Shown: piece after piece, positions 760 to 39,000 of the stretch | Position numbering within the stretch: position 1 is the stretch's first letter | Layout of the letters: the number at the start of each line of letters is the position of its first letter | DNA from: Paucibacter sp. KBW04 | GTDB lineage: Bacteria > Pseudomonadota > Gammaproteobacteria > Burkholderiales > Burkholderiaceae_C | Length of the DNA stretch: 64,000 bases | Assembly: GCF_003852425.1 (NCBI RefSeq) | Contig: NZ_QAJN01000014.1 | Coordinates: forward strand, 1-64,000 | Direction: 5' to 3' | The notes under the pieces: model-generated | What the model saw: only the letters and a program-made list of their open reading frames with translations | Told to the model about the DNA's origin: nothing | The model's database searches: none | Made by a program: the position numbers and the translations under genes

Positions 760-1092
760 CTACAGCACGCGGATGACGCCAGCTTCGCCCATCATCTGCC
801 AAGGCAGGCCCAGCACGAGCGCATCGAGTTGAACGCGGCTCAGGCTCAGTGTGCCTTCGACGTGATGAGGCCAGATGAACTTGCCGCGATGCAGCCGCCG
901 GGCGGCCAACCAGATGCCGACGCCATCATGCACCAGCACCTTCATGCGATTGGCGCGTCGGTTGGCAAAGAGGTAGGCGGTGTGCGGGTGAGCGGCGCCA
1001 AAGACCTTGACCACGCGGGCAAGGGCCGACTCGGTGCCGGCGCGCATGTCCAGCGGCTCGACCGCCATCCAAACAGAGTCGATGCGGATCAA
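760..1092 (-). CDS. tnpB: IS66 Orf2 protein TnpB
   Basis: This is the accessory protein of IS66 transposition, 110 residues long, the usual size for the family. It carries the family signature (VWMAVEPLDMRAG near the N-terminus, FANRRANRMKVLVHDGVGIW in the middle). The start is taken as the TTG at 1092, whose last two bases and the next A form the TGA stop of tnpA (TTGA overlap). This suggests translational coupling. A longer frame from 1146 would run deep into tnpA and would put extra residues before the conserved start. The molecular role of TnpB is poorly defined, although IS66 elements need it for efficient transposition. Confidence 0.88.
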   Translation of the reverse strand: MIRIDSVWMAVEPLDMRAGTESALARVVKVFGAAHPHTAYLFANRRANRMKVLVHDGVGIWLAARRLHRGKFIWPHHVEGTLSLSRVQLDALVLGLPWQMMGEAGVIRVL

Positions 1093-1445
1093 CGCAGCAA
1101 CTCGCGAGTCCAGGCGGCGAACTCGGCCGCCGCCGATGTGGGCCATTTGATCGTCATCGCAATAGCGCCACGGCGCAGCTCAACCCGAATGTCGGCGCTG
1201 GCGACGGACTCCGATGGGACAGGCGCCGACGCAAGCGATACCGGGACGAAGCCGCTTGAGAGCGTGGGCAGTGATGGCTTGCCCTCACGCTGTATTTGCC
1301 GCCAGCGGTGCACGACATTGGCATTGATGCCATGGGCCAGGGCCACCTTCGCTACCGAGGTGCCCGGCACTTCGCACTCGGCCATCACCTGCGCCTTCAA
1401 CGCATCGCTGTAGTTCCGTCGCCTCGTGGGCTTGTCGCTTGCCAT
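1089..1445 (-). CDS. tnpA: IS66 Orf1 protein TnpA
   Basis: This is a small helix-turn-helix protein of the IS3/IS66 Orf1 type, expected to bind the element's ends. The HTH region (residues about 10-50) includes the motif SDALKAQVMAECEVPGTSVA and the recognition stretch ANVVHRWR. The ATG at 1445 is preferred over the GTG at 1454, because an AAGGTGGA ribosome-binding site lies just upstream of the ATG. The stop codon is shared with the start of tnpB. It is the promoter-proximal gene of the element and lies closest to the interrupted fecR. Confidence 0.85.
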   Translation of the reverse strand: MASDKPTRRRNYSDALKAQVMAECEVPGTSVAKVALAHGINANVVHRWRQIQREGKPSLPTLSSGFVPVSLASAPVPSESVASADIRVELRRGAIAMTIKWPTSAAAEFAAWTRELLR

Positions 1446-1498
1446 CGTGTCCACCTTGTTCTACGTGGACACGATCCTTCCAGTCGCGACGGGTCAAT

Positions 1499-2467
1499 TC
1501 AAGATGGGATGGCCGGTCGCATACGATTCATCTCAGCCACGGCATCAAGCAGCGAAACATCATCAAACAGCGCCTCACCACGCTTCCAGGCCAACACCTG
1601 CTCCATGCGCGGCCGGTCGACTTGAGCTACAGCCAGGGCAAGCGAACTGCCCTGCTTGCCTGACTCCCCTGCCCCAGTCCGCGAATCAAGCCGCATTCGC
1701 TCTCCCGGCGCCATCACGAGTGGGCTCCGACGCGCAGCCCCCGCGTCACCTGATGAAGCATCACGGACCACCACCTGCCCTTCCACCAAGGTCACGGCGA
1801 GGGCTGCAGCTGCAGCAGGCGAATCACCTGGCGTTAGCCGCACGACAAAGGCCGTGCCGGTGGCCACGACTTCAGTCCCTGCCGCCTGAACAATGAAAGG
1901 CCGGCTCAGATCTTTGGCGACCTCGAACAAGGCCTCACCACCCTCCACGGAGACGGTGCGCTGCGCCCGCCCAAGCTCCACGCGAACCCGCGAGGCGGTG
2001 TTCAGCGACATGCGGGTGCCGTCTTCCAGCATCACCACCTGCTGCTCACCCACCCCAGTCCGAAAGTTCTCTACATTTCGCCAGGGATGCAAGATCACCA
2101 AGCCCGCGAGGAACGAGACAGACAAGGCCAGGGCCCAAGGCACAGGCCTCGTAGGTAGGTGCACTTGGCGAGCCACTGAAGCACCCTCGCCAGAAGCTGA
2201 GCGAGCATAGCTGCTCAGCGTCACGCCCGCCACCTCCTGCCAGATCTCGGTGCAGCGCTCAAAGGCCAGACGATGCGCCGCAGATCGCTCCTGCCAAGCC
2301 AGGCATTCGCGCTCCATGCGTACGGACCGATCCGGCCCATGCAGGCGAGCCACCCACACCGAGGCTTCTGCCGCAATCTCGGGTGTCACCACCGGAGCCG
2401 CCGCCTCACCAAGCCCCCTGCCCTCTTCTTCTCCTGAACCACGCACGCCTACCAACCTTCCATCCAA
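1499..2467 (-). pseudogene. FecR-type anti-sigma factor, 3' end removed by IS66
   Basis: FecR-family proteins span the inner membrane and control a FecI-type sigma factor. The frame shows an N-terminal cytoplasmic part with the WVARLHG...FERCTEIWQ pattern (residues about 30-80), a membrane segment (about residues 108-125, PWALALSVSFLAGLVIL) and a periplasmic FecR domain (GVGEQQVVMLEDGTRMSLNTASRV onward). The family's C-terminal STN-like portion should follow the motif AWKRGEALFDD...LLDAVAEMNR. Here the frame instead runs six to eight residues into the IS66 end and stops. The downstream part and any TonB receptor gene that would normally follow are therefore cut off. The 5' end overlaps the sigma gene by 19 bases, as in intact fecI-fecR pairs. 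A truncated FecR may still bind its sigma factor, so some function is possible. Confidence 0.8.
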
Positions 2468-2934
2468 CCTGTCACCTGCAGTGTCGCCTTGGCAATGTGC
2501 TTCTCCACCGTGCTGGTGCTCAAGCCATGGCGTTCTGCAATCTCCCGATACGTCAGGCCGTCAATGCGGTTGGCCAGGAAGATGTCGCGCGTCTTCTCGT
2601 TCAAACGGTTCAGGCACACGCTCATCCGCGCCATGCGCTCGCGGGCCAGCACCACGGCTTCAATGCCCGGCGCCGTATCCAACAACACCACCTCCTCCAC
2701 CAGCACCTCCTCGCCATGATTGACCCGCGCCCGGTGTGCATCAATCGACAAGTTCAGCGCCGTGCGCATCAAGAACGCCTCGGGCCGCTCCACCGGCACC
2801 GGCTGATCCAACTCATAGCGGGCCAGGCGAATCCAGGCTTCTTGCACCAAATCATCGGCATCGTGGGTTGAGCGGCCTCGGCGCATCAAAGCAGCTCTGA
2901 CACGCGAGAACACCGGGGGCCAGTTCTTGCTCAT
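2449..2934 (-). CDS. FecI-like ECF sigma factor
   Basis: This is an extracytoplasmic-function RNA polymerase sigma factor, 161 residues. Region 2 lies at about residues 10-75 and includes the motif DADDLVQEAWIRLARY. Region 4 lies at about 105-150, with a helix-turn-helix in GLTYREIAERHGLSTSTVEKH. Both are typical of the FecI group that turns on iron-uptake or other TonB-receptor genes. The ATG at 2934 is chosen because a GGGAGAG ribosome-binding site precedes it at good spacing. An upstream ATG at 2949 has none. The gene follows the transposase-like gene by 32 bases and overlaps fecR, so the three are probably cotranscribed. The target genes are not visible. Confidence 0.88.
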   Translation of the reverse strand: MSKNWPPVFSRVRAALMRRGRSTHDADDLVQEAWIRLARYELDQPVPVERPEAFLMRTALNLSIDAHRARVNHGEEVLVEEVVLLDTAPGIEAVVLARERMARMSVCLNRLNEKTRDIFLANRIDGLTYREIAERHGLSTSTVEKHIAKATLQVTGWMEGW

Positions 2935-2966
2935 TTGAATCTCTCCCATTCAAGCGTCTACGCGCC

Positions 2967-3797
2967 TCAGATGAAACCAGCAACTGCAGAACCCAGAGGC
3001 TTGCCAGAGGCTGCCATGCCCAAAGCCCCATAAGGACGAGGAGCCAAAGCAGCAGAAGTAGCAGCACGCTCCAGCCGGCGCTCAGCGCGCAACAACACAG
3101 CGCACACAAACTCCAACGCCTCCGCCGAATCGGCAAAGCTGCCATGCCGAGCAATCGCTCGCTCCAAGCTCCCTTGGATCTCGGCCGCCATGCGGTCTGC
3201 AGCAAGCACCAACCGCCGCGGAGAGGCAGGCAAGTCAAACAGAGGCCGCCAATGCTCCAAGGCCAAGCGCCACAGCGCCACGATCTGCGGGTACTTCTTG
3301 CCCCAAGGCCCAGCTTCAACGTCAGACAAGACATCCGTCGCCGAGCTGCTGCAACTGGCTCCGACCACCGTCTGAAATGCGCCCGCAACAGCTTGCCTAT
3401 GCCGAGGTGCCACCAAGGCAACCGTGACGGCCATGGCCTGTGCGATCGATGGCAATGCCGCCGCGCCAAAGAACTCGACGCCTCGCTCAACGCCCTTCCC
3501 TACCAACGGAGTGCCAACTGAGTAGCGGATGCGCTCAACTCCTCGGTCACCTAAATCCGCAACTAGCTCAGGCGAGAGCGTCACATCGAAGCGGGTCTGA
3601 CACCATGCGCCCAGCAGTTCAAACTCGCCATCCAGCAAACAGCCAAACCCCCAATAAACCGTCACGCAAGAGGCAGGCGAAGCTCTCACAGACACATCGA
3701 CTGATCGAACAACAGCGACCAGGTAGCGGCGACTAAGTAACCGGTATTGCAGACGCAAGCTTTCGGCCCTGCTCTCAACTCGATTCAACGCATCCAT
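2967..3797 (-). CDS. IS256-transposase-like protein lacking catalytic residues
   Basis: This is an intact 276-codon frame. By eye, the stretch from about residue 30 to 240 follows the core of IS256-family transposases almost without gaps. It has a YWGFG...LDGEFELLGAW strand pair where IS256 has a 'valGvd.dG.kevLG.w' pattern, LGDRGVERIRY where IS256 has 'LK.RGv..v', VAPRHRQAVAGAFQTVV, WGKKYPQIVALWRLALEHW, and LFDLPASPRR before GSLERAIARHGSF. The IS256 acidic residues seem to be gone: the first Asp aligns with Arg/Ser, the second with Gly, and TTNAIE is replaced by AADRMA. The N-terminal DNA-binding half of a 400-residue transposase is also mostly absent. An open frame despite dead chemistry suggests a retained, non-transposing function or recent decay. 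The ATG at 3797 has a strong GGGAGGGG site. It heads a probable operon with the sigma and fecR genes, opposite xre. Confidence 0.6.
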   Translation of the reverse strand: MDALNRVESRAESLRLQYRLLSRRYLVAVVRSVDVSVRASPASCVTVYWGFGCLLDGEFELLGAWCQTRFDVTLSPELVADLGDRGVERIRYSVGTPLVGKGVERGVEFFGAAALPSIAQAMAVTVALVAPRHRQAVAGAFQTVVGASCSSSATDVLSDVEAGPWGKKYPQIVALWRLALEHWRPLFDLPASPRRLVLAADRMAAEIQGSLERAIARHGSFADSAEALEFVCAVLLRAERRLERAATSAALAPRPYGALGMAASGKPLGSAVAGFI

Positions 3798-3842
3798 TGC
3801 CCCTCCCAGCATGCCCCTAAGCCTGACGATTTTGCGTCATTA

Positions 3843-3860
3843 CTCCAACTATAGTTGGAG
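3843..3860. promoter_or_regulatory. Perfect 18-bp palindrome, likely XRE operator 1
   Basis: CTCCAACTATAGTTGGAG is perfectly self-complementary. It lies between the divergent starts at 3797 and 3915, and a near copy sits 47 bases away. Paired palindromes beside a small XRE gene are typical autoregulatory operators. That this protein binds them is an inference. Confidence 0.75.
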
Positions 3861-3889
3861 GACAAAATAATATCAAAGCGGCCCAATTT

Positions 3890-3907
3890 CTCCAACCATA
3901 GTTGGAG
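3890..3907. promoter_or_regulatory. Near-perfect 18-bp palindrome, likely XRE operator 2, includes the xre ribosome-binding site
   Basis: CTCCAACCATAGTTGGAG differs from operator 1 by one central base. Its right arm ends in GGAG, which sits seven bases before the TTG start of xre and would serve as the Shine-Dalgarno sequence. Binding here, or an RNA hairpin from the same sequence, could block translation as well as transcription. Confidence 0.7.
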
Positions 3908-3914
3908 AAACTTC

Positions 3915-4142
3915 TTGGACGTCGCAATCAAATTTGGGAAGGTTTTGCGCGACCTGCGCAAGCAAGTCGGCATGACGCAAGAGCAGTTGGGCTTTGAGGC
4001 CGAGCTAGAACGCAACTACATCAGCATGCTTGAGCGAGGAGAACGACAACCAACGCTGACCACGCTAATGAAGCTAGCAAAGCCCTTGCGTTGCAAGGCC
4101 TCGCATATGGTCGCACTGGTCGAATCGACTTCACTCGAGTAG
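3915..4142 (+). CDS. Small XRE-family HTH regulator
   Basis: This is a 75-residue single-domain DNA-binding protein. The Cro/C1-type helix-turn-helix covers about residues 8-65, with the hallmark stretch MTQEQLGFEAELERNYISML and ERGERQPTLTTLMKLA. The frame is open from 3855, but that start would place both operator palindromes inside the gene. The TTG at 3915 has a GGAG site at the right distance and starts directly before the HTH. It is divergent from the transposase-like/sigma operon and likely represses itself and perhaps that operon. Stand-alone regulators of this type also occur as controllers of restriction-modification or toxin genes, but none is next to it here. Confidence 0.8.
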   Translation: MDVAIKFGKVLRDLRKQVGMTQEQLGFEAELERNYISMLERGERQPTLTTLMKLAKPLRCKASHMVALVESTSLE

Positions 4143-4272
4143 ACAGATCAAGACTCGCCGACTAGGAAGCCTGTACTGCATTCAAAGTTGGCCAGCAAAG
4201 TGTGGGACGAATTGCCCTAACCTCCACTGCTCAGTTTTCCATGGGCAGCAAAGTGCAGAGGACGCGATTCGT

Positions 4273-4683
4273 ATGCCTATCAGTTCGGATTTGCTGAACA
4301 GGACCCTGAAGCTCTTGGAGGGACTTGGCCCACTCCGTACGCGCAAGATGTTCGGTGGTGTCTACATCTACTGCGACGACCTGTTCATCGCGACAGTGCA
4401 CGACAAAATTCTCTACTTCAAGGCCAATGCCAGCACAGCACCGGCCTTCCAAGCGAAAAATTTGCCAATCTTCTCGTACCCAAAGGAAGGTGGAGTTGCG
4501 ACCCTCCAGTACTTTCAGGCGCCACCCGAGGTCTTCGACGACCCCGCAGAGATGAAGCTATGGGCAGAAACCGCGTTGAAAGCAGCAAAACAAGATGCAA
4601 CCATAAAGGCTGCCAAACGAGAGTTGGCTCACAGCCGCGCCATATCCAAAAAGGCGGCGCCAAAGCAAGGCTGTGAAGACTAA
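4273..4683 (+). CDS. TfoX N-terminal-domain protein
   Basis: This 136-residue protein matches the TfoX/Sxy N-terminal domain: LLEGLGPLRTRKMFGGVYIYCDDLFIATVHDKILYFKA is the family core (residues about 9-55), followed by a region with TLQYFQAPPEVFDD. In Haemophilus and Vibrio, full-length TfoX switches on competence genes. Single-domain homologues such as this are common in betaproteobacteria and have no established role. The C-terminus is lysine/alanine-rich. It stands alone 130 bases after xre, and a strong terminator follows at 4925. Base composition here is visibly lower in GC than the flanking core genes. Confidence 0.8.
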   Translation: MPISSDLLNRTLKLLEGLGPLRTRKMFGGVYIYCDDLFIATVHDKILYFKANASTAPAFQAKNLPIFSYPKEGGVATLQYFQAPPEVFDDPAEMKLWAETALKAAKQDATIKAAKRELAHSRAISKKAAPKQGCED

Positions 4684-8299: not shown

Positions 8300-9280
8300 T
8301 CAAGATCGAGAGGAATTCACTTCCGCCATGGACTTGTCGCCCAAGCCCAGCGGCAAGGGGAAGCGCACATGCTCCTCCACGCCGGGCAGGCTGCGCACGG
8401 CCGTGGCACCCAGGGCACGCAGGCGGCTGATGACGGCCTGCACCAGCACATCGGGGGCCGAGGCGCCGGCCGTCAGGCCCACTTTGGAACGACCTTCCAG
8501 CCACTCGGCTTGCACTTCGTCTGCGCTGTCCACCATATAGCCCGGCGTGCCCAGACGCTGGGCCAGCTCACGCAGACGGTTGCTATTCGAGCTGGTGGGG
8601 CTGCCCACCACGATCACCACGTCCACCTGGGGGGCCATCACCTTGACGGCGTCCTGGCGGTTCTGGGTGGCATAGCAAATGTCTTGCTTCTTGGGCTCGC
8701 GCACCAGCGGGAAGTGCTTCTTCACGGCGGCCAGGATTTCGGCCGCATCGTCCACGCTCAGCGTGGTCTGCGTCACCACGGCCAGTTTGGCGGGATCCTT
8801 CACGCGCACATGGGCCACGTCTTCCACCTCTTCGACGAGGTAGATGCCCTCGCTGAGCTGGCCCATGGTTCCTTCCACCTCGGGGTGACCCTTGTGGCCG
8901 ATCATGATGAACTCATAGCCTTCGCGGTGCAGCTTGGCCACCTCCACATGCACCTTGGTGACCAGCGGGCAGGTGGCGTCAAAGACCTGGAAGCCGCGCT
9001 CGGCCGCTTCTTGGCGCACGGCCTGGCTAACGCCGTGGGCGCTGAACACCAGGGTGGCGCCGGGCGGCACATCGGACAACTCTTCGATGAAGATGGCGCC
9101 GCGTGCCTTCAAATCGTTCACCACATAGGTGTTGTGCACGATCTCATGGCGCACATAAATGGGCTGGCCGAACTTGAGCAGGGCCCGCTCGACGATTTCG
9201 ATGGCGCGGTCCACACCGGCGCAAAAGCCGCGCGGCTCGGCCAGCAGGACTTCTTGTTGGGCTTGAATAGGCTCGCTCAT
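8300..9280 (-). CDS. ispH: 4-hydroxy-3-methylbut-2-enyl diphosphate reductase
   Basis: This is the last enzyme of the non-mevalonate (MEP) isoprenoid pathway. It is an iron-sulphur protein that reduces HMBPP to isopentenyl and dimethylallyl diphosphate. The 326-residue length is normal. The three cluster-binding cysteines sit in [22 protein letters not shown] and [11 protein letters not shown], and the active-site motifs HEIVHN and TSSNSNRL are present. It starts two bases after the fkpB stop, so the two genes form an operon. This fkpB-ispH order is common in proteobacteria. Confidence 0.97.
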
Positions 9281-24977: not shown

Positions 24978-25388
24978 GTACGCCAAATTCAATAAGCCCA
25001 GGAAACCCCTGCCTTATTCATCGAACACGAATTGATTCGATGTGTTTGAAATCGGCAAATTTGGCAAAAATACTTACCATCCACGCACGTTAAAGCAGCC
25101 CGGTAGCGCCAGGAAACCATGCACGCCACGCCCGGCAAGAGGCAATCCAAGCCCGGCTGACATAGAGAAAAAAGATAACGCCAAAACTCCTAGCACTGTT
25201 TTTCGGGCTCGCGGGCGATGCCTGATCAAACGATGGCTTCAAGACAGAGGAAACCGGCAATATTTCGCAAACCTCGCAATTGTCTCAACTGTTGTTTTTA
25301 TCGATTTAAGCACCTCCAGACGCCAGAATAGTTTTTGCTCCGATTGAAACCAAACCGGGTGCGGCGATTGCGCTGCTCAGGAATAACG
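24978..25388. other. AT-rich intergenic leader before the secretion locus
   Basis: These 411 bases lie between the yicC terminator and the tpsB start. They are much richer in A and T than the rest of the window (e.g. 25000-25070 and 25260-25340). The frames present, including one of 101 codons from 25042, lack codon bias and a ribosome-binding site. The promoter of the two-partner secretion operon is presumably here, but no -35/-10 pair stands out. I looked for cyclic-di-GMP and cobalamin riboswitch motifs and found no convincing match. Confidence 0.6.
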
Positions 25389-27041
25389 ATGATTTCACTG
25401 CGTTCACAGCAAAAACTATGCGGCCTGCTTATTCTGCAAGGGATGAGTTGCGCCTGGGCTCAAAGCGACGCCGGTGCCATCCGGCAACAGATCGAGCAAG
25501 GCATCCCCAGCCCGCGGCCGGAGTCCAGCACGCCGCCGCTGCGGCTGGCGCCCGCGCAGCTGCCCAGCCAGGGCGACACCCGCGTCTTGATCAAGGAATT
25601 CGTGTTGCAGGGCAATCGCCTGCTAAGCGATGCCGACTTACAAGCCCTGCTCTCGCCCTGGCTGAACCAGCGCCTGAGCTTTGGCCAGATGCATCAGGCC
25701 AGCCAGGCGGTGGCCGAGGCCTATGAGCGCGCCGGCTGGCTGGCCCGGGTGCTGCTGCCGGCTCAGGACGTGAGCGAAGGACGGCTGCGGCTGCAAATCG
25801 TCGAGGCGAACTTTGGCACGGCCCATGTGCAGGCCGAGCCCGGCAGTCGCGTCAAGCCGGAGTTGGTCCAGCGCATGCTCATGCAGGCCCAGCCCAGCGG
25901 CTCGCCGCTGAGCCTCGCGGCCCTGGACCGCGCCCTTTTGCTGGCGGGCGACCTGCCCGGTGCCCAGGTCAAAGGCAGCTTGCGAGCCGGCGAACAAGAG
26001 GCGCAGACCGATATCGACATCCAGCTCAGCGCCCAGCCCCTGCTGTTGGGGGATTTGCAGCTGGACAACTATGGCGGCCGATCCACCGGCAACACCCGTC
26101 TGGGCGCCAACCTCCAGCTGCAAAGCCCAGCCCGCCTGGGCGATCAGCTGCTGGCCAGCTTCAGCGCCTCACAAGGCAGCCAGTACGGGCGCCTGGCCTA
26201 TACCTTGCCCTTGGGCAGCCAGGGCTGGCGGGGCGGCGTGAACGCGTCCCTGATGCGCTATCACCTGATCGCCCCCGAGTTCGAGGCCCTGGACGCCAAA
26301 GGGCCCAGCAGCACCCTGGGCCTGGAGGCCAGCTACCCCTTGCTGCGCAGCCGCAACACCAATCTCTACGCCAATCTGAATCTGGACCACAAGTACTTTC
26401 ACAACCAGAGCCTGGGCGCCGACACCTCCAAATACCGGATCGAGGTCGCCAGCCTCTCCTTCAGCGGCAACCGACTGGACAGCTGGGCACGCGGGGGCGC
26501 CAACTCCTTCCGTCTGGGCTTGAGCGGCGGCCATGTGAACCTGAATGGTTCGGCCAATAGCCAAGCCGATGCCCTGACCACACGCACGGCGGGCAAGTAC
26601 CTGAAGCTGAATTGGCAGCTTGCGCGCCAGCAAACACTCAATGAATCCCTGGTCGGCGTCGTCGAGCTGAGCGGCCAGTTCGCCAGCAAAAACCTCGACT
26701 CCTCGGAAAAGTTCTATCTGGGCGGCCCCTACGGTGTGCGCGCCTATCCCGTCAATGAAGGCGCCGGCAGCGCCGGCTTGATGGCAAGGCTGGAGTTGCG
26801 CGCCAGCCTCTCCCCGCAATGGTCGGCCACCGGCTTTGTGGACGCGGGCCGGGTCACCATCAATCAAGACAACCACTTTGAAGGGGCGCCCGCCCTCAAC
26901 AAGGCCAGCCTCAGCGGCATGGGTCTGAGCGCGGCCTACAGCACGGGCAAGGGCCAGCGCCTGCAAGCCACGCTGGCCACCCCCTTTGCCAATAGCGCGC
27001 AAGGCCCGCGCGTCTGGGTCAGTCTGAGCCAAGCGCTCTGA
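25389..27041 (+). CDS. Two-partner secretion outer-membrane transporter (TpsB, FhaC/ShlB type)
   Basis: This protein makes an outer-membrane beta-barrel that exports its TpsA partner. It has 550 residues and a signal peptide (hydrophobic LCGLLILQGMS, cut near AWA-QS). A proline-rich N-terminal helix/linker precedes a POTRA domain (about 60-140, LIKEFVLQGNRLLSDADLQALL) and a second POTRA-like part (VKPELVQRMLMQAQP). The barrel begins near LQLDNYGGRSTGNTRLG, and the L6-loop motif GGPYGVRAYPVNEG lies near residue 455. It ends in a beta-signal-like strand (RVWVSLSQAL). The ATG at 25389 has an AGGA site seven bases away. The giant exoprotein gene follows 49 bases later, so they form one operon. 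Confidence 0.93.
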   Translation: MISLRSQQKLCGLLILQGMSCAWAQSDAGAIRQQIEQGIPSPRPESSTPPLRLAPAQLPSQGDTRVLIKEFVLQGNRLLSDADLQALLSPWLNQRLSFGQMHQASQAVAEAYERAGWLARVLLPAQDVSEGRLRLQIVEANFGTAHVQAEPGSRVKPELVQRMLMQAQPSGSPLSLAALDRALLLAGDLPGAQVKGSLRAGEQEAQTDIDIQLSAQPLLLGDLQLDNYGGRSTGNTRLGANLQLQSPARLGDQLLASFSASQGSQYGRLAYTLPLGSQGWRGGVNASLMRYHLIAPEFEALDAKGPSSTLGLEASYPLLRSRNTNLYANLNLDHKYFHNQSLGADTSKYRIEVASLSFSGNRLDSWARGGANSFRLGLSGGHVNLNGSANSQADALTTRTAGKYLKLNWQLARQQTLNESLVGVVELSGQFASKNLDSSEKFYLGGPYGVRAYPVNEGAGSAGLMARLELRASLSPQWSATGFVDAGRVTINQDNHFEGAPALNKASLSGMGLSAAYSTGKGQRLQATLATPFANSAQGPRVWVSLSQAL

Positions 27042-27090
27042 ACCCGGCACGCCCTCGTCTCAAGAATCAACCAGAAATCAGGACCCCACC

Positions 27091-30000
27091 ATGAATCGCC
27101 ACGGTGCTTTGAATCGCATGTACAGGCTGGTCTGGAGTGACCATCTGCAGACCTATGTTGTGGCCGCCGAGAACGCCCGCTCGCAAGGCAAGGGCTCGAG
27201 CAAGGCCGGCCGTCGGCTGCTGGCCGTGCTGGGTTTCGGTCTGAGCGGCGTGAGCCTGGGCCTGAGCGCTTTTGCCCAGACCGCCCCGCCGCCCAAGGCC
27301 CTGCCCAGCGGCGGCCAGCTGGTGGCCGGCCAGGCCCAGATCGTCAGCAATGCCGGTGCCGGCCAGATGAATATCGTGCAGGGCACGCCAAGAGCCGCGA
27401 TCGATTGGCAGAGCTTCAATGTCGGCGCGCAGGCACAGGTCAACTTCGTTCAGCCCAGCGCCAGTGCTGTGACGCTGAACCGCGTCTTGGGCAGCGACGC
27501 CAGCCAGATTTTTGGACGCATCAGCTCGAACGGCCAGGTCTTCCTGAGCAACCCGAATGGGGTCTATTTCAGCCCTAGCGCCAAGGTGGATGTGGGTGGC
27601 CTGATCGCCACCACACATGCCATCAGCAATGCGGACTTCATGGCTGGCAAAGCATCGTTCGCCCGCGCTGGCTCAAGCGGCGCCGTGGTCAACGACGGTG
27701 AACTGCAAGCCAAGCTGGGCGGCTATATCGCCCTGCTGGCACCCGAGGTGCGCAACGAGGGCGTCATCGTGGCCCAGGCCGGCACGGTAGCCCTGGCCGC
27801 GGGCGAGAGCTTCAGCCTGCAACTCAATGGCAATCGCCTGGCGGCGGTGCAGGTGACGGCGGGCCAGATCAAGACCTTGGTGGACAACCGCCAGGCCGTG
27901 TTGGCGCCGGACGGCCTGATCATCCTCAGCGCCCGCGCGGCCCAAAGCCTGGGTGGCGCCGTCATCAAGCACAGCGGCACCCTGCAGGCCAATAGCCTGC
28001 AGGAGCGCGGCGGACGCATCGTGCTGGAGGCCGACGAGATCCAGCTGGCCAGTGGCGCTAGCGTCCAGGCGCGCGGCGCCAGCGGCGGCGGCACCGTTTT
28101 GATCGGAGGCGACTGGCAAGGCAGTGGCACGGTCTACCAGGCCAGAAAGGTAGAGGCCGAGGCCGGCTCCAGCGTCGACGTCAGCGCCAGCCGCGACGGG
28201 GACGGGGGCAAGGCCGTCTTGTGGAGCAATGCGCATCAGGCCGGCACCACGACCCGGGTGCAAGGCCAGGTCCTGGCCCGGGGCGCGGGCAGCGGATCGG
28301 GCGGGCAGATTGAAACCTCGGGCCATGCCCTCTTGCTCGAAGGCAGCCAGGTCAATGCGGGTGCCGGCGGGCAATGGCTGATCGACCCCTACAACGTCAC
28401 GATTAGCAATGGCAGCACCCAGGCCGGCGGCTCCGGCGTGACGGCGGCCGGCGGCGGCAGCTGGACGCCCAGCGCCTCGGGCTCGACCATCAGCAACAGC
28501 CTGATCAACAGCGCCCTCAACAATGGGCAGAACGTAAGCATCACCACCGCTGGCGCGGGGGCTGAGGCCGGCAATATCGCCGTCAATGGCGCTATCAACA
28601 AAAGCAGCGGCGGCATCGCCAATCTGAGCCTGATCGCCGACGGCAGCATCACCGTCGCGGCCAATATCACCATGGGCAGCAGCAGCGCCAACTCCGGCGC
28701 GGTCTTACTCAAAGCCAAGAGTGGGATCACCCAGAACGCGGTGACCATCAAGACCTTTGGCCAGAACGTGACCTTCTGGAGCAATTCGAGCAATAGCGGC
28801 GAAGGTCGCATCGTCGTCGGCACCGGCGCCAAGATCGACACCGGCACCTCGACCAACTCGGCAGCCGTGGGCGCGGCCACCAGCGGCGGCGGCCGCATCA
28901 CCTTGGGCGGCGGCCTGGACGATGGCGCCAATGGCGGCGTCGCGGGCGACGGCATTCCCGATGGCTATGCCACCAGCGCCACGGCCAATCCTCTGGTGCT
29001 GGGCGTGGCCGCCACACCGGCCGTCAGCCCTGGCCCCGCCCTTTGGTCCGGCGGCGGCAATGTGCAGGTGCGCGGCAAGTCCACCGGCAGCAATAGCGGC
29101 ACCTCGGTGCTGGGCAGCGGCGGTCTGACGATAGACAGCGGCACCGGCAGCATCGAACTGACGGGCCAGACCTTGGTGACCGGCGGCAACGGTCGCGGCG
29201 TCTTGCTCAATGCCTGGGGCGACAGCGCAACGCCCACGGTGATTCGCTCGCTTTCCAGCGCCGCCAATGCCATCAGCATCACCGGCGACTCCTCGGCCTC
29301 CACCGGCTATGTGTCAGGCAATGACCGCACCGGCATCGACATCGGCTTCGGCAACAGCGCTGGCGCCAGCGCCAGCATCTCGGCCCCCAACGGCGGCGGC
29401 ATCGTGATGGTGGGCCGCTCGCCCATTGCCGGCAATAGCGGCATCGACCTGAACTTCGTCGACATCCTGGCTAATAGCGGCGCCATCTCGCTCAACGGCG
29501 GCGTGCAAGGGGTCACGCTGGGCAGCAGCAGCAATTCCAACGTCACCCTGGGCGCCAAAGCAGGCTCGGCCGTCACCAGCAGTAGCAGCGCGATCAGCCT
29601 GACGGGCGACATCATCACCTCAGGCAATGCCACCGCGGTACAAGGCTCGGGCAGCGTCACGCTCAAGCCCTCGACCAACAGCAACACCATCGCCGTCGGC
29701 AACGGTGCACCGGCGCAAAGCCTCAGCAACCTGAATCTGGCCACCAACTTCTTTGACGGCAGCGGGGCGATCAAGAGCGGCTTCAGCCTGGTCACCGTAG
29801 GATCCAGCGCGGGCACCGGCGTCATCAATGTCAACGGCACGAGCAGCGACACGCTGAACTTCGTCAACCCCATGCGCTTCCTAACCGGGGGCACGGCCGA
29901 CATCAATTTGCGCGGCAACAGCGTTTACACCGGTGCTGGCACCCACAGCTCGCTGAGCGTCAATGCGGGCGGCGCAGCCACCCTGAGCGGCGCCATCAGA

Positions 30001-33000
30001 TCCGCCAGCATCGCGCTGGATGTGACTTTGACGGGCAACTTCAACGATGTCCTCAGCAACAACAGCTTGTCGGGACACAACGGTTGGTGCAGTGTTTGCG
30101 TCAACCAGGGTTCGTCCATCCTCAGCAGCGGCGGCAATATCAGCTTGACCGGCGTGGCGCCCAACGCCGCCTCTGGCACCTTCGCTCCCTCCGCCGTGGT
30201 GGTCCAGTCAGCCACACTGGATGCGAGCACGCCGGGCAAGGCCAGCGCTTCGACGATCCAGATCAATGGCAGCTACACCGGCAGCTCGACCAGCCCGGGC
30301 ACGACCTGGGGTGTGACCGGCGTCACGCTGACCGGCAGCAGTTCGGTCTTCAAGGCAGACGGCGCCATCAAGGTCACGGGCGATGCCGGGACGCCTTGGT
30401 ACGGCAGCTCGGGCACCGATCTGGGCGTAGACATTCGCGGCGGCAGCTGGACCGTGGCCCCGGCCAGCGGCAAGGGCAGCATCACGATCACCGGCACGGC
30501 ACGCCAAAGCAGCTATGCCAGCGTCGGCCTCTACTATGGCGACCTGGCCATTGCCGGTGCCGTCGACACCACCATCAACACGGGCGCAGCTTCCACCGCG
30601 AGCACAGGCTTCCTCATTCAATCCGGCCACTCCCTCAGCAGCTCCAGCAGCGGATCCCTCACGATCAGCCCCGTGCAAGGCAATATCAGCATTGCCGGCA
30701 GCCTCTCGAACACGGCGGGCTCGGACGCCTTGCTGAACACCCAGGGCAACAACAATATCTTCGTCACCGGCAGCATCGCAGCGGGCGCAGGCAATCTGAG
30801 CCTGGCCGCCGGCAGCGACCTGGCCCGGGGGGTCAGCAGCGGCGGCAATATCAGCGCCCAGGGCAATATCACCGGCACGGGCCAGCTCTTGTTCTATACC
30901 GGCAGCGTCGCCGGCACGTCCATCAGTTCCCCCATCAACGGCAGCAGCTCATGGCTGGCATCCGGCAGCGGCGACTTCCGCTACAACCGCCAGTACCTCG
31001 ACCCGGTCGGCGCCTTGGCCGTGGGCAATGGCAAGAACTATGTGCTCTACCGCGAACAGCCCACCCTCAGCCTGAGTGGCCTGAGCAATACCAGCAAGGT
31101 CTACGGCAACACCGATCCGGCGGCACCTATGCCCACGGGCGTCAGCGGTGCGCTCAACGGCGACACCCTGGCACAGATCGCCCCCAGCGCCCTGAGCCGC
31201 GTCGCGGGTGAGAACGTGGGCAGCTACCGCTATGGCGGTACGAGTTCACAGCTGGGCTACGCCTTCGCGCCCATCAACGTCGCCTTGAACATCAGCCCGC
31301 GGCCGCTCACGCTGTCGGGCACAAGGGTCTACGACGCCAGCAGCAATATCTCGGGCAATCTGCTGACGGTGACGAATCTGGTGGGCGCTGACGTCTTGCA
31401 ACTCAGCGGGACCGGCCAGCTCAGCCTCAAGGACGTGGGTAGCCGCAGCCTCAGCGACAGCAGCGGCCTCATCCTCGGCGGCAGCGCGGCCAGCAACTAC
31501 ACCTTGACGGGCGCCAGCGGCAGCATCCTCATCACCCCCAAGACCATTGCCAGCACGGCCACGGCGCCCAGCAGCAAGGTCTACGACGGCAGCACGGCAG
31601 CCTACGGCAGCAGCGCCAGCCTGGCCGCCGCCGAGGCACCGGGCAGCGGCACATCCAGCGATCTGCGGCCCTATGCCGGCGACACGCTGAGCCTGAGCGG
31701 CAGCGCCCTGGGCAGCTACAACAGCAAGGACGTGGCCACGGCCAACACCATCACCTTCTCGGGCGCTGGTTTGACCCTGACGGGAGCGAGTGCCGGCAAC
31801 TACATCTTGCAGCAGGCCAGCAATAGCCAGGCCGCCACCATCACGCCCAAGAGCCTGACGCCCACCGGCCTGAGCGCCAATAACAAGGCCTATGACGGCA
31901 GCACGGCAGCCACCCTGAGCGGCACGGCTACCCTATTGGCCAGCGAAGCCGTCGGCACCGGCTCGGCCGTCGATGGCAAGCCCTATGCCGCCGATGCGGT
32001 CGCCCTGAGCGGCACGCCCGTGGGTACCTTCAACAGCGCCAACGTGGCCGGAGCCAACAGCGTGAGCGTCACAGGCCTGAGCCTGAGCGGCGCCCAAGCC
32101 AGCAACTACAGCCTGGCCAGCTACCCGAGCTTGAGCGCCAGCATCGCCCCTGCCCTGCTGACGGTGACGGCCAATGCCGACGCCAAATTCGTCACCACCG
32201 CCGACCTGGCCGGCTTCAACGGCGTCAGCTACGCCGGCTTTGCCAAGGGGGAAAACGCCTCGGTGCTCTCGGGCAGTCTGAGCATCAGCCGCAGCAATCC
32301 CAGCCAAGAGCTGGTCGGCAATTACGCCGGCGTGCTGGTCCCCAGCGGTCTGAGCGCGGCCAATTACGCGATCAACTACGTCAACGGCGACTACCGCATC
32401 ATTCCGGCGGACCAGTTGCTGATCAAGGTCACGAATCAAAACACGGTCTACGGCAGCAGCCCTAGCTACGCCGTCTACAGCGCCCAGTACATGGCGGGCG
32501 GCAACACGCTCACCAATCTGAGCCTGGTCTCGAACAGCGGCAATCAATATCGCTACGCCGATGCCAACGGCGCCGAGACCAGCTTCACCCTGGCCGCCAA
32601 CAACGCCTTGCTCAGCAGCAGCGGCAATCTGCGCGTCGGCAATTACTCGGTGGGCGGCACGGCCACGCAGATTGCCGGGCAATACAGCGCCCTGAACTTC
32701 GTGGGCAATCTCAGCGTCAGCCAAAAAGCGCTGACACCCAGCGTCGCCTCCGGCCTGAGCCGGGTCTATGACGGCACGACCACGATGAGCGGCCTGACCC
32801 TGGCCAGCAGCGACGCCATCGCCGCCGACGCGCTGACCCTCAGCGGGCTGGGCAATTTCAGCGCCCGCAATGTCGGCACGAATCTGGCCTACACGGTTCA
32901 AGCGCTCACGCTGGGCGGCAGCGACGCCGGCAACTACTACCTGGCCAGTGGCAGCAGCTTCAGCGGCAGCAATGGGGTGATCACTGCCCGGCCCCTGTTG

Positions 33001-36000
33001 ATCAGCGCTCCCATCATCAGCAAGGTCTACGACGGCACGACGGCCTATGCCGTCACGGCGGGCGATTTGCTCAGCATGGGAAGCGGCCTGGTGGGCGGCG
33101 ACAGCCTGAGCAATGCGACGCTGAGCTTTGCCAGCAAGATGGCCGGCCTGAACAACCGCACGGTCACGCCCTCTGCCGCTGTCATCGCCGATGGCAATAA
33201 CGGCAATAACTACAGCGTTAGCTATGCCTCGAACGCGCTGAGCAGCATCAGCCCGCTGAACCTCACCCTGGCCGCACCCAGCGTCAACAAGGTCTACGAC
33301 GGCAGCAACGCCGCCAGCGGCCTGGCCAGCCTGGTGGCCGGCGCCTATGTGGCGGGCGACTCCCTGCAGTCCAACAGCCTGGTGTTTGCCAACAGCCATG
33401 CCGGCACGGGCAAGACGGTCAACGTCTCCAACGCCCTCATCTACGACGCCCTGGGCGCGGACATGAGCGGCAACTACACCATCAGCTATCAGGCCAATAC
33501 GAGCAGCAGCATCAGCCCCAAGACCCTCACGGCCACGCTGAACAACGGGCCCGTCAGCAAGGTCTACGACAGCAATAGCGATGCGCCCAGCGGCTTCACG
33601 CCGGGCTGGTCCCTAAGCGGCTTCATCAGCGGGGACAGCAGCGCCCAGCTGAACACGGGCTCGGTGGCCTTCAACAGCAGCCATGTCGCCACAGCCAGCC
33701 AAATCATCGTCAGCGGACTCAGCATCGGCAGCATCAGCGGAAGCAATGGCAGCTTGAGCAGCGACTACCAACTGGGCGCCAGCAGCCAGTCGGTGGCCGC
33801 CAGCATCACGCCCAAGACCCTCAGCGCGAGCCTCAGCAACACCGGCGTGAGCAAGGTCTACGACGCCAGCACCCAGGCGCCTAGCGGCTTCGTTCCGAGC
33901 TTCGCCCTCACCGGCTTGATCGCCGGTGACAGCGCGGCCAGCATCCAGGCCGGCAGCGTCCAGTACAACAGCAAGGACGTGGCCACGGCCAGCCAACTCA
34001 ACGCCAGCGGCCTGACGATAGGCACCATCGGCGGCAGCAATAGCAGCGCCGCCAGCGACTACCAGCTCGCCAGCTCAAGCGCCAGCGTGGCCGCCACGAT
34101 CACGCCCAAGAGCCTGACGCCCTCCGGCTTGTCGGTGGCCGCCAGCAAGGTCTATGACGGCACGACCGGTGTCACGCTGCTGGGCAGGGCTGCACTGGCC
34201 AGCCCCCAGGCCCCGGGCAGCGGCAATGGCAGCGATGGCACGCCCTATAGCGGCGACGCCATCGGCCTCAGCGGCGTGCCCATCGGCACTTACAACAGCG
34301 CCAATGTCGCCGACGCCACCGGCGTGGCCATCAGCAATCTGAGCTTGGTCGGTGCGCAGGCCAGCAACTACAGCCTGGCCAGCTACCCGCTGCTGGCCGC
34401 CAGTATCAGCCGCGCGCCCTTGAGCATCACGGCCAATGCGGACGCCAAGTTCGTCACCACGGCCGACGCTTCCGGCTACAACGGCGTGAACTACACAGGC
34501 TTTGTGCATGGCGAGACTCGCACGGTCTTGAGCGGCACGGCCTCGGTGACGCGCAGCAACAGTGCCGAGGCGGTGGGCAGCTATGCCGGTGTGCTCGTGC
34601 CCAGCGGACAGAGCGCGGCCAACTACGCCATCAGCTTCGTCAACGGCGACTACAAAATCATCCCGGCCGACCAGTTGCTAATCAAGGTTCAGAACCAGAA
34701 CAGCGGCTATGGCACGAGCCCGCTCTACAGCGTGGCCAGCGCCCAGTACATGTTGGGCGGCACGACGCTGACCGATCTGACCCTGCTCTCGCACAGCGGC
34801 AATCAATATGTTTTCGCCGATGCCAATGGCGCCCAAACCGGCTTCACCCTGGCAGCCAGCAATCCGCTGTTCAGCGGCAGCAACCATCTGCGGGTGGGCA
34901 ATTACAGCGTGGCGGGCGTCAACAACAGCATCTCGGGCCAGTACAGCGCCCTGAACTTTGTCGGCAATCTGACGGTGGATCAGGCCGCCCTCAGCCCCTC
35001 GGCCAGCGGCGGCCTGAGCAAGGTTTACGACGGCACGACGGCCATGAACGGCCTCAATCTGAGCATGGGCGGCCAGTTGTCCGGTGATCTGCTCAGCGCC
35101 AATGGCAGCGGCGCCTTCAGTTCCCGCAATGCCGGCAGCCCGGTGGACTACACGGTCTCGAATCTGAGCCTGAGCGGCAGCGATGCGGGCAACTACTACC
35201 TGGCCGGCGATGGCCATAGCTTCAGCGGCCACGATGGCGCGATCACCCCGCGCGCCATCACCTTCACCGCCCCCATCATCAGCAAGGTCTACGACGGCGG
35301 CACGGCCTATACCAGCAGCGCGGCCGATCTGAACGCCATGGCCGGCGTGCTGGTGGGCGGCGACCAGCTCACCGGCATGCAGCTGGAATTCAGCAGCAAG
35401 ATGGCGGGCAGCAATAACCGCAGCGTGAGCGCCTCCCTGGCCCAGATAGCCGATGGCAACCAGGGCCGAAACTACACGGTCAGCTACGCCGGCAACCAAG
35501 CCAGCACAATCACGCCCCTGGCGATCAGCCTGCTGGCGCCCAGCGTGAGCAAGGTCTACGACGGCAGCACCGCCGCCAGTGGCCTGGCCAGTGTGAGCAG
35601 CGGCGCTTTTGTCGGCGGGGACAGCCTGATCGCCGACACCCTGAGCTTTGCCGACGCCCACGCAGGCAGCGGCAAGCAGCTGATCGTCTCCAACGCCCTG
35701 GTGCGCGATGCCCAGGGCGCGGATATGAGCGGCAATTACCAGTTCAGCTATCTGTCCAGCCTGAGCAGCAGCATCACGCCCAAGACCCTGACGGCCAACA
35801 TCGTCAACGGCGGCGTCAGCAAGGTCTACGACGGCAGCAACAGCGCGCCCGGCGGCTACACGCCGACCTGGAGCGTCAGCGGCCTGATCGCAGGAGACAG
35901 CGCGGCCAGCCTGGCCTACACCCAGGCCGGCTACAACAGCAGCCACGTGGCCACGGCCAATCAGCTCACGTTCAGCGGCCTAAGCCTGAGCGGCATCAGC

Positions 36001-39000
36001 GGCAGTAACGGCAGCCTGAGCAGCGACTACCAACTCGGCAGCAATCAAGCCAACACCGCCGCCAGCATCACCCCCGCCACACTCACTGCGCAGCTAGCCA
36101 ACACGGGAGTCGCCAAGGTCTACGACGCCACGACCCAAGCCCCTGCCGGCTTTGGCCCGCTGTGGAGCGTCACCGGCCTGGTCGCGGGCGATAGCGCCGC
36201 CAGCATCAAGGCCGCGACCCTGGCCTACAACAGCAAGGACGTGGCCTATGCCAGCCAGCTCAGGGCCAGCGGCCTGACGATAGGCGCCATCAGCGGCAGC
36301 AATAGCAGCGCGGCCAGCGACTATCAATTGGCGGCCAGCAGCAGCGCGGTCGCCGCCAGCATCACGGCCAAGAGCCTGACGCCCGGCGGCCTGGCCGTGG
36401 GCAGCAAGGTCTATGACGGCACGAACAGCGCGCCCTTGACCGGCACGGCGAGCTTGGCAGGCGCACAAGCCCCGGGCAGCGGCAGCAGCAGCGACGGCAT
36501 TCCCTACGCCGGCGACCAGATCGCCCTGGCCGGCACACCCGTCGGCAGCTTCAATAGCAGCGATGTCGCCAGCGCCAACACGGTCAGCGTCAGCGGCCTC
36601 AGCCTGACGGGCGCACAATCCAGCAACTACAGCCTGGCCAGCTACCCCAGCCTGAGCGGCAGCATCCAGCGCGCCGGCCTGACCATCAGCGCCAACCTCG
36701 ACGCCAAATTCGTCACCACCCCCGATGTGGCCGGCTTCAACGGCGTCCACTATGAGGGCTTTGTGCATGGCGAGACCCCGGCCGTTCTCAGCGGCACGGC
36801 CACGGTCAGCCGCAGCAACACGGATCAAGTGGTGGGCCAGTACGCCGGCGTGCTGGTGCCCTCGGGCCAGACCGCGGCCAACTACAGCATCACCTATGTC
36901 AACGGCGACTATCACATCATCCCCGCCGACCAACTGCTGGTGAAGGTGCGCAATCAAAGCGATGGCTATGGCAGCCCCTCCAGCTACGGCATCGCCAGCG
37001 CCCAGTACATGGCCGGCGGCGTCACCCTGACCGATCTGACCCTGAGCTCACGGGTCGGCGACCGCTTCAGCTTTGTTGATGCCAATAACGATGCCTCGGC
37101 CTTCACCATCACGCCAGGCTCGCCTCAGATGAGCAGCAGCGGCAATCTGCGCGTCGGCAACTACCTGATGAGCGGTGTCGATCAAAGCCTCTCGGGCCAG
37201 TACAAGGCGCTGGAGGTGGTGGGCAATTTGACCGTCACGCCCAAGGCGTTGACGCCCTCGGTCAAAGACGGGCTCAGCAAGGTCTACGACGGCACGACCG
37301 GCATGAACCAGCTGAACCTGAACGCAGGCGGCCAGCTGGCGGGCGATGCGCTCAGCCTCAGCGGCAATGGCGCTTTCGCCAGCCGCAATGCAGGCAGCGG
37401 CCTGGCCTACACGGTCAGTCAACTGAGCCTATCGGGCAGCGATGCCGACAACTACTACCTGGCCAGCGCCAGCAATAGCTTCAGCGGCAATAACGGAACC
37501 ATCACTCCGCGTGCCGTCACGCTGACGGCCCCCGTCATCAGCAAGGTCTACGACGGCGGCACCAGCTATAGCGCCACGGCCACGGATCTCAGCGCCATCG
37601 GCAGCGTGCTGGTGGGCGGCGACAGCTTGAGCAGCATCGATCTCAGCTACACCAGCAAGATGGCTGGCAGCGGCAATCGCAGCGTCAACGCCGCCAATGC
37701 ATCGATTCAAGATGGCAACAACGGCCTCAACTACCTCGTCAGCTATGCCGGCAATGACAGCAGCAGCATCACGCCCCTGAGCATCACCCTGGCCGCCCCG
37801 ACGGTTAGCAAGGTGTACGACGCCAGCCTCACGGCCAACGGCCTGGCCCAGCTGAGCGCGGGCGCGTTTGCCGCCAGCGATGTGCTGAGCAGCAATAGCC
37901 TGGCCTACACCGACAGCCATGCGGGCCTGGGCAAGACGGTGAATGCCTCCAAGGCCTTGATCCTGGACGCCCAGGGCGCGGACATGAGCGGCAACTACAC
38001 GATCAGCTATCTGGCCAATACCAGCAGCAGCATCAGCCCCAAGACCTTGACGGCCACGCTGAACAATGAGGGCACGAGCAAGGTCTATGACGGCAGCACG
38101 GCGGCACCCAGCGGCTGGGCGCCCAGCTGGAGCTGGGCGGGCTTGGTCGGCGGCGACAGCGCCGCCAGCCTGAACTTCCTGAGCGCCAGCTTCAACAGCA
38201 GCCATGTGGCCACGGCCTCGCAAATCAGCGTTGGCGGCCTGAGCCTTGCCGGCATCAGCGGCAGCAATAGCAGCCTGGCCAGCGACTACCAGCTCAGCGC
38301 CAACCAGGCCAGCGTGGCCGCCAGCATCACGCCGGCCAGCCTCAGCGTCAGCCTCAACAACAGCAGCCTCACCAAGGTCTACGACGCCAGCACCCAGGCG
38401 CCGCAAGGCTTCACGCCGATCTTTGGCGTCAGCGGTCTGATCGCGGGCGATAGCGCCGCCAATATCGGCTGGAGCACGGCCTTCTACAACAGCAAAGACG
38501 TCTGGAGCGCCCAGCAGCTCACCGTCCAAGGCCTCAGCCTGAGCGGCATCAGCGGCTCACTAGCCAGCCAGGCCAGCGACTATCAGCTGTCCAATACCAG
38601 CGCCTCGGCAGCCGCCAGCATCAGCGCCAAACGGCTCACGCCCGGCGGGCTCTCGGTCGCACCCTCCAAGGTCTATGACGGCACCCGTGGAGTCAATCTG
38701 CAAGGCCAGGCCAGCTTGGGCGCAGCCGAGGCCGCGGGCACGGGCAATAGCCTGGATGGCCTGGCCTATCTGGGTGACGCCGTCGGCCTGAGCGGTGTGC
38801 CCGTCGGCCTCTACAACAGCGCCGATGTGGCCAGCGCCAACGCGGTCAGCATCAGCCATCTGAGCCTGAGCGGCGCGCAAGCCGGCAACTATGTCTTGGC
38901 CGCCTACCCCAGCCTGGCGGCCAGCATCAGCAAGGCAACCCTGACGGTGACCGCCAATCTCGACGCCAAGTTCGTCACCACTGCCGACGAGGCCGGCTAC

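Follow-up and report, generated by a model that had tools for sequence, protein, structure and literature searches.

The 64,000-nucleotide stretch of Paucibacter sp. KBW04 DNA analyzed here (contig NZ_QAJN01000014.1, positions 1 to 64,000; called the window) carries near its start a gene that raises a question. Is an open reading frame (ORF) resembling the core of an IS256-family transposase, placed just before a fecI-type sigma factor gene and a fecR-type anti-sigma gene, the remains of an insertion sequence (IS) or a transposase fold put to another use? The window protein (2967–3797, minus strand) and its homologues are labelled dT. The domestication of an IS256 catalytic-domain homologue, as proposed in a first-pass annotation of this DNA, is well supported, and neither of the outcomes named there as a refutation was seen: dT matches IS256 transposases in a comparison of hidden Markov models (HMMs), forms a coherent family under selection and recurs next to fecI.

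The dT protein and its family

The frame is intact on the minus strand, a detail missing from the first-pass annotation; the plus-strand reading of 2967–3797 has five stops. Translation from the inner ATG at 3797, preceded by GGGAGGGGCA, gives 277 aa, and an alternative ATG at 3812 gives 281 aa. The motifs LDGEFELLGAW, LGDRGVERIRY, WGKKYPQIVALW, LFDLPASPRR and GSLERAIARHGSF, listed earlier as marks of the IS256 core, are all found, and AADRMA replaces TTNAIE. Profile searches bore out the likeness. The window dT matches Pfam Transposase_mut with an E-value of 1.5e-9 and 37.7 bits (cut-off 21), residues 22–243 aligning with positions 152–372 of the 379-position profile, and 16 of 17 dT members match it. 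HHalign, run with 17 dTs against 11 transposases, gave 99.8% and an E-value of 5e-30 over 232 columns. The sole strong match in a PDB profile search was 6xg8, ‘Mutator family transposase’ (E 2e-19). With the NCBIfam model transpos_IS256, dT scores 32.3 bits, under the equivalog cut-off of 150. A Foldseek search with a single-sequence AlphaFold model of the window dT (predicted local distance difference test score, 46.6) gave no match at E ≤ 0.001.

The N-terminal half is indeed absent, as the Pfam match begins at profile position 152. There is no room for N-terminal domains because the XRE gene lies at most 270 bp upstream of dT. In ISCth4 TnpA, the N-terminal residues ~1–165 comprise the DD, NDB and helix-turn-helix (HTH) regions, which form the main dimer interface and bind subterminal DNA (PMC7780238, available part). 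No long terminal inverted repeats were found around dT in 1480–4200, where very imperfect ones could escape. Just two repeat pairs turned up in that region, one made of the operator-like palindromes and the other a 15-nt pair within the fecR/fecI genes.

The loss of catalytic residues also held on alignment, the window dT having R, T and A at the Asp-Asp-Glu (DDE) columns. In an alignment of 24 dTs (23 linked to fecI, plus locus L052) with 41 full-length transposases, all 41 transposases have D-D-E, 23 of the 24 dTs lack an intact triad and 15 keep none of its positions. The CxxH motif belongs to the insertion domain of IS256-type transposases (PMC7780238, available part); its C is kept in one of the 24 dTs and its H in none. 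Changes not seen in the transposases include D for the N of TTN (18/24) and L for an invariant Q (20/24). Eight residues are invariant across a 17-row dT alignment (Y30, W54, G57, E65, G91, L216, F226 and V236 in window numbering), some of them also common to transposases. The insertion-domain stretch is found in most members; the middle part is missing, with the frame open, in the copies on C27, L052, L132, L135 and L149 (210–248 aa). Identity to the window dT is 22–45% for the 16 other dTs of the 17-row alignment and 22–29% for full-length transposases among the hits.

The family was sampled by searching a six-dT profile in 399 same-family genomes, of which 62 matched at E ≤ 1e-12, many of them through true transposases of 400 aa or more. 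Neighborhoods were fetched for 38 frames under about 350 aa, a limit that longer dead copies would escape. The genome of the window, whose contig is called C6, holds a second dT on contig C28 (78% identical) and, on C27, a shortened third; both lie upstream of near-identical fecI/fecR genes (FecI 96–99%). A same-genus genome, G001, holds three more, among them L052, which lies at a contig end with its fecI side out of view. In a quick tree, unrooted and with long branches, a single branch splits 27 dTs from 41 transposases with a support (SH-aLRT, an approximate likelihood ratio test) of 100.

Comparison of homologues, a check proposed with the earlier annotation, revealed a coherent family under purifying selection. 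The ratio of nonsynonymous to synonymous divergence (dN/dS, omega) is 0.31–0.59 in 12 dT pairs, as given by the simple NG86 estimator. Bootstrapping of seven pairs placed all 95% intervals below 1, with upper bounds of 0.43–0.94; among about 1000 draws for each pair, omega reached 1 or more in 0, 0, 9, 0, 1, 0 and 0. The window dT and that of L050 have both kept intact frames at a dS of 1.41 (omega 0.33).

The gene row around dT

Downstream of dT lies the gene of the fecI-type extracytoplasmic function (ECF) sigma factor (2449–2949, minus strand; Sigma70_r2 and Sigma70_r4_2). Its ATG at 2949 is 17 nt after the dT stop; an alternative ATG at 2934, preceded by GGGAGAG, is 32 nt past it. The fecR-type anti-sigma gene follows (1499–2467, minus strand; DUF4880 and FecR). 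The earlier statement that dT heads a sigma/anti-sigma pair thus holds for the order and strand of the genes, but it was silent on the truncation of fecR, whose C-terminal part is lost at an IS66-type element. FecR is 322 aa long in the window and 371 aa in the C28 paralogue, the length found in L048. The element occupies 760–1524 at the contig start, its ORFs (760–1454, minus strand; TnpB_IS66 and HTH_Tnp_1) adjoin the cut gene, and homology to the C28 copy stops near 1524. Signaling by the window module may be altered by this truncation.

A recurring fecI neighbor, the other proposed check, was found in 23 loci from 15 genomes and 11 genera. These are 18 of the 38 short-frame loci, in which fecI is directly downstream on the same strand (16 also with fecR), and five from the genus. 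Among the 20 loci without fecI, 14 are fragments with transposase residues wherever covered, and six are dT-like (L122, L123, L137, L140, L148 and L150), all except L123 being cut off by a contig end where fecI would lie. Where downstream sequence is left, fecI is present in 23 of 24 dT-like loci. The start of fecI could be placed in 14 of the 23 loci and not in the other nine; five of the 14 (L049, L050, L132, L135, L149) have a possible start with a 4-nt overlap of the dT stop. In the control set of 61 full-length IS256 transposase loci (about 3.7 kb each, 49 distinct places), the fecI, fecR and XRE models matched none. These HMMs, like that of dT, were derived from the loci of this study. 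The idea of a lone pseudogene is rejected by the recurring fecI linkage together with the purifying selection.

On the other side of dT, the window carries a divergent XRE/HTH_3 regulator gene that was passed over in the first-pass annotation (3915–4142, plus strand, within an ORF at 3855–4142; the TTG at 3915 is its likely start). Of 29 dT loci (L150 left out), 28 have a divergent XRE domain no more than 270 bp from dT; once the ten model-building loci are removed, the count is 18 of 19. Two or three tandem XRE genes precede dT in L116, L127, L128 and L136, all bearing a receptor; no further XRE match was found in the upstream DNA searched.

Between the divergent genes lie two 18-bp operator-like palindromes, CTCCAACTATAGTTGGAG (3843–3860), which covers the predicted -10 element of the dT operon (TATAGT), and CTCCAACCATAGTTGGAG (3890–3907), immediately before the likely start of the XRE gene. 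The predicted sigma-70-like promoter for dT-fecI-fecR (3848–3876, minus strand) reads TTGATA-17-TATAGT and matches the consensus at 10 of 12 positions; region 3700–4300 contains two promoter-like sites against 0.4 expected. No more than 5 of 100 single-base shuffles equal the best palindrome of the locus in 12 of 24 loci. Several palindromes are found at more than one locus: CTCCAACNATAGTTGGAG in that of the window and in L071 and L213; TGCTATTGACGTCAATAG(CA) in L050, L113, L068 and L231; and ACGGCATATATGCCGT in L130 and L149. They accompany other XREs, including those before fecI without dT. The XRE gene and its operator look like an exchangeable unit because L071, L213, L068 and L231 have no dT.

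A TonB-dependent receptor gene begins 60–78 bp past fecR in seven dT loci (L114–L117, L127, L128, L136). Four of these receptors were scanned with Pfam: Plug was found in all four and the barrel in three, and STN was above the cut-off in two, just below it in one and not found in one. The full row is thus a divergent XRE gene followed by dT-fecI-fecR-receptor, and these seven loci look like complete cell-surface-signaling operons. The receptor of L113 follows the second of two fecI-fecR pairs, which has a LuxR-type neighbor. For the remaining loci, some of which are cut on that side (IS66 in the window, IS3 in L049, a contig end in L050), the fetched DNA shows no receptor directly after fecR; the window is the start of its contig, so that sequence past the IS66 element is out of view. 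As a general rule, ‘FecI-FecR without receptor’ is ruled out by the seven loci.

Possible roles of dT

The role that we consider likely, if by no means certain, is that of a non-catalytic protein- or DNA-binding partner in an XRE-switched TonB-type signaling operon. That dT has a regulatory role is a guess, which we infer. The DNA- or RNA-binding regulator suggested in the first-pass annotation is likewise putative, and the DNA-binding N-terminal half is missing from dT. In this mechanism, the dT-fecI-fecR(-receptor) row would be an operon for TonB-type cell-surface signaling under an XRE switch. By binding the palindromes between the genes, XRE would shut the operon promoter, and relief of repression would let dT, FecI and FecR be produced together. 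FecR would then hold or release FecI according to an outer-membrane signal, received by the module's own receptor in seven loci and possibly by a host receptor elsewhere. Released FecI would drive module-linked genes, while dT, produced just before it, would tune FecI or XRE as a non-catalytic partner. A broader version remains tentative and is rather less probable than its opposite. It sees dT as a catalytically dead IS256 core, a partner of the ECF sigma factor or of the XRE switch and an unprecedented exaptation of a DDE transposase. Such a protein might have spread between genera with signaling operons and, where no receptor is present, with mobilizable islands whose cargo it would help control.

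Several observations weigh against this role. Close relatives of the window FecI number 37, in 14 of 299 family genomes. Among 26 of these loci that were read (some already counted), 12 have dT, with XRE visible in 10; the others are all without dT, nine having XRE, three a LuxR-type gene and two neither. The genus adds five XRE loci without dT and three with LuxR. Fourteen loci thus pair a divergent XRE gene with fecI without dT (fecR in view in 12), which means that not every such module needs dT. A recombination joint also lies within dT itself, as C6 and C28 show when compared: parts of dT have been exchanged, and with them the XRE gene and its flank. The two contigs are 92% identical in DNA from window position 3743 down to 1524 and unrelated on the XRE side, and their dT genes have a dS of 0.7–1.3 in the first 120 alignment columns and of 0.09–0.16 in the remainder. 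Catalytic residues have not vanished everywhere: D, D and E are singly present in 3, 3 and 7 of the 24 dTs, and by alignment the dT of L124 retains all three. The palindrome does not stand out in the other 12 of 24 loci. The constraint on dT is moderate, as its dN/dS is several times that of FecI (0.04, 0.14 and 0.07 in three pairs; no non-synonymous change in a fourth). Finally, L123 (6231–7079) has a dT-like frame without XRE or fecI despite the presence of downstream sequence; it is possibly a relic.

Could all dTs be relics, the end piece of an ancient IS256 insertion before fecI that stayed open by chance? The moderate dN/dS, up to 0.59, would fit such decay, as would the loss of the middle part in the five shortened members, the two stops in the dT-like piece of L150 and the isolation of L123. 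Frames have nonetheless stayed intact at dS above 1, one branch holds 27 members, most of the 24 aligned dTs share residue changes (D for N, L for Q), and the gene order is identical across 11 genera. The branch, the dN/dS values and the bootstrap already make this weakest of the rivals very improbable. Hardly more credit is given to the idea that dT, a dead and shortened transposase, is an inhibitor of transposition and shields the operon or island by titrating or poisoning active IS256-type transposases. Truncated transposases do act as inhibitors in other IS families, and dT has kept the catalytic-domain sequence. Mixed dimers are, however, not expected, because dT lacks the region that in ISCth4 forms the main dimer interface and binds subterminal DNA (PMC7780238, available part). 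The window dT is 22–29% identical to the full-length transposases among the hits and 22–45% to the 16 other dTs of the 17-row alignment, and the linkage to fecI and XRE would be left unexplained.

The third rival, unlikely as well but given slightly more room, takes dT for an accessory DNA-processing or mobilization protein of islands, acting for example at an origin of transfer (oriT) or at an 11-bp repeat array and co-expressed with the sigma factor without regulating it. A conserved 38-bp oriT-like site does lie 0.4–2.5 kb behind fecR in 3 of 24 dT loci (L118, L121, L129). Relaxase-like genes occur in L049, L052 and L121 and trbE in L050, L115 and L132, together 6 of 24 dT loci. Yet five copies of the module without dT have the site too, and the array fully in four of the five; the seven receptor-bearing dT rows resemble ordinary signaling operons, and dT has no N-terminal DNA-binding half.

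TnpB and TldR are well-studied bacterial exaptations of transposon enzymes other than DDE transposases. TldRs are nuclease-dead, TnpB-derived, RNA-guided repressors (PMC13418256, available part). They are the nearest case to dT by concept alone, being transposon enzymes exapted to gene regulation after the loss of catalysis. TldR is RNA-guided and not a DDE transposase, whereas dT is of DDE-type descent and its regulatory role is putative. Casposase and Cas1 are another bacterial case (PMC8987985, in whose available part ‘IS256’ is absent). IS256 transposases themselves (Mutator family; ISCth4 TnpA, PDB 6xg8, 6xgw and 6xgx) are similar to dT over the catalytic domain. They differ from it in the DDE triad (not intact in 23 of 24 dTs), in CxxH and in residues ~1–165 as delimited in the available part of PMC7780238, and no long inverted repeats were found flanking the window gene. 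With FecI-FecR-FecA signaling, dT rows share the ECF sigma factor, a FecR with DUF4880 and, in seven loci, the receptor; they differ in being headed by dT and in having a divergent XRE gene.

Exapted bacterial transposon enzymes are a known kind, and a fecI-linked dead IS256 core is without found precedent. Searches of the open-access literature, a scope that leaves most subscription papers outside, brought up no account of such an IS256-derived protein linked with fecI; PMC2864759 and PMC3056050 treat IS256 and FecI/FecR in separate sections of their available parts. A monophyletic, catalytically dead IS256-type protein kept under selection beside fecI in 11 genera would mean that recruitment extends to classical DDE transposases, and would give ECF/TonB signaling an unexpected component. 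Annotation pipelines probably label dT genes as transposase fragments, and for this reason the family may be overlooked.

Mobile setting and neighboring genes

The low dS between L127 and L128, which belong to different genera (0.15 for dT, 0.03 for FecI), suggests recent transfer, as judged from these two gene pairs alone. Other collections were also searched. In plasmids, tblastn with dT gave 129 records; among 30 matches listed, 23 name an IS256-type transposase, and the other seven name none or have no annotation. With FecI, it gave one Sphingobium record (40%) with FecR and a receptor, in a stretch with no transposase among the annotated genes. A scan of viral contigs gave 16 stretches matching a pattern, none of them a relative. 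A genome contig scan gave 16 loci, nine of which joined the full-length transposase set, identical copies being dropped. At order level, 50 of 399 genomes matched, mostly through frames of 400 aa or more among the matches listed.

Five fecI-fecR copies without dT in the genus (L068–L072) have about 2.05 kb in common, from the first fecI codons to one common end, past which the DNA is unrelated. Their fecI-fecR homology starts within about the first 30 fecI codons, and the FecI N-termini differ, as if the fecI start were a favored recombination joint. At the common end, between fecR and the oriT-like site, lies a tandem array of an 11-bp unit (GGTCCGGATAC; 5642–5745 in L068), with about 8–10 copies in L068, L069, L070 and L072 and about 3 in L071. 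The 11-bp spacing suggests protein binding on the same face.

The 38-bp site follows at 5881–5918 in L068, 5896–5933 in L069, 6063–6100 in L070, 5666–5703 in L071 and 5996–6033 in L072; in the dT loci, it lies at 2875–2912 (L118), 1897–1934 (L121) and 8730–8767 (L129). Of 250 family genomes, 11 carry it, with 13 occurrences in all, against no occurrence of the reversed pattern among the matches listed. On its reverse strand, GCCTATCCTGCA resembles what we take to be the nic region of IncP/MOBP plasmids. A PF03432 relaxase gene lies beside three of the 13 sites (L196, L203, L204), and a small HTH-like protein, found by pattern, is encoded beside five others; two of these proteins were scanned and had no Pfam match. 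The site is probably a MOBP-like oriT, judging from the nic consensus and the relaxases at 3 of 13 sites.

PADLOC, run on ten neighboring proteins, gave clear matches to LmuA/LmuB in L067 (a LuxR-type module without dT), PD-Lambda-1 in L069 (without dT) and Hp2 in L050 (with dT); the other scanned neighbors had weaker or no matches. By eye, the module of L124 lies among polysaccharide genes, and a tyrosine recombinase resembling integron integrases is encoded beside the XRE/fecI module of L072 (8921–10006). In L149 (6935–8302), an mnmE/trmE-like gene, also recognized by eye, adjoins the dT module; mnmE/trmE is an integration site of some genomic islands. Farther along the window, 25335–40662 holds a probable two-partner secretion pair, again identified by eye, with proteins of 568 aa and of 4523 aa with numerous internal repeats.
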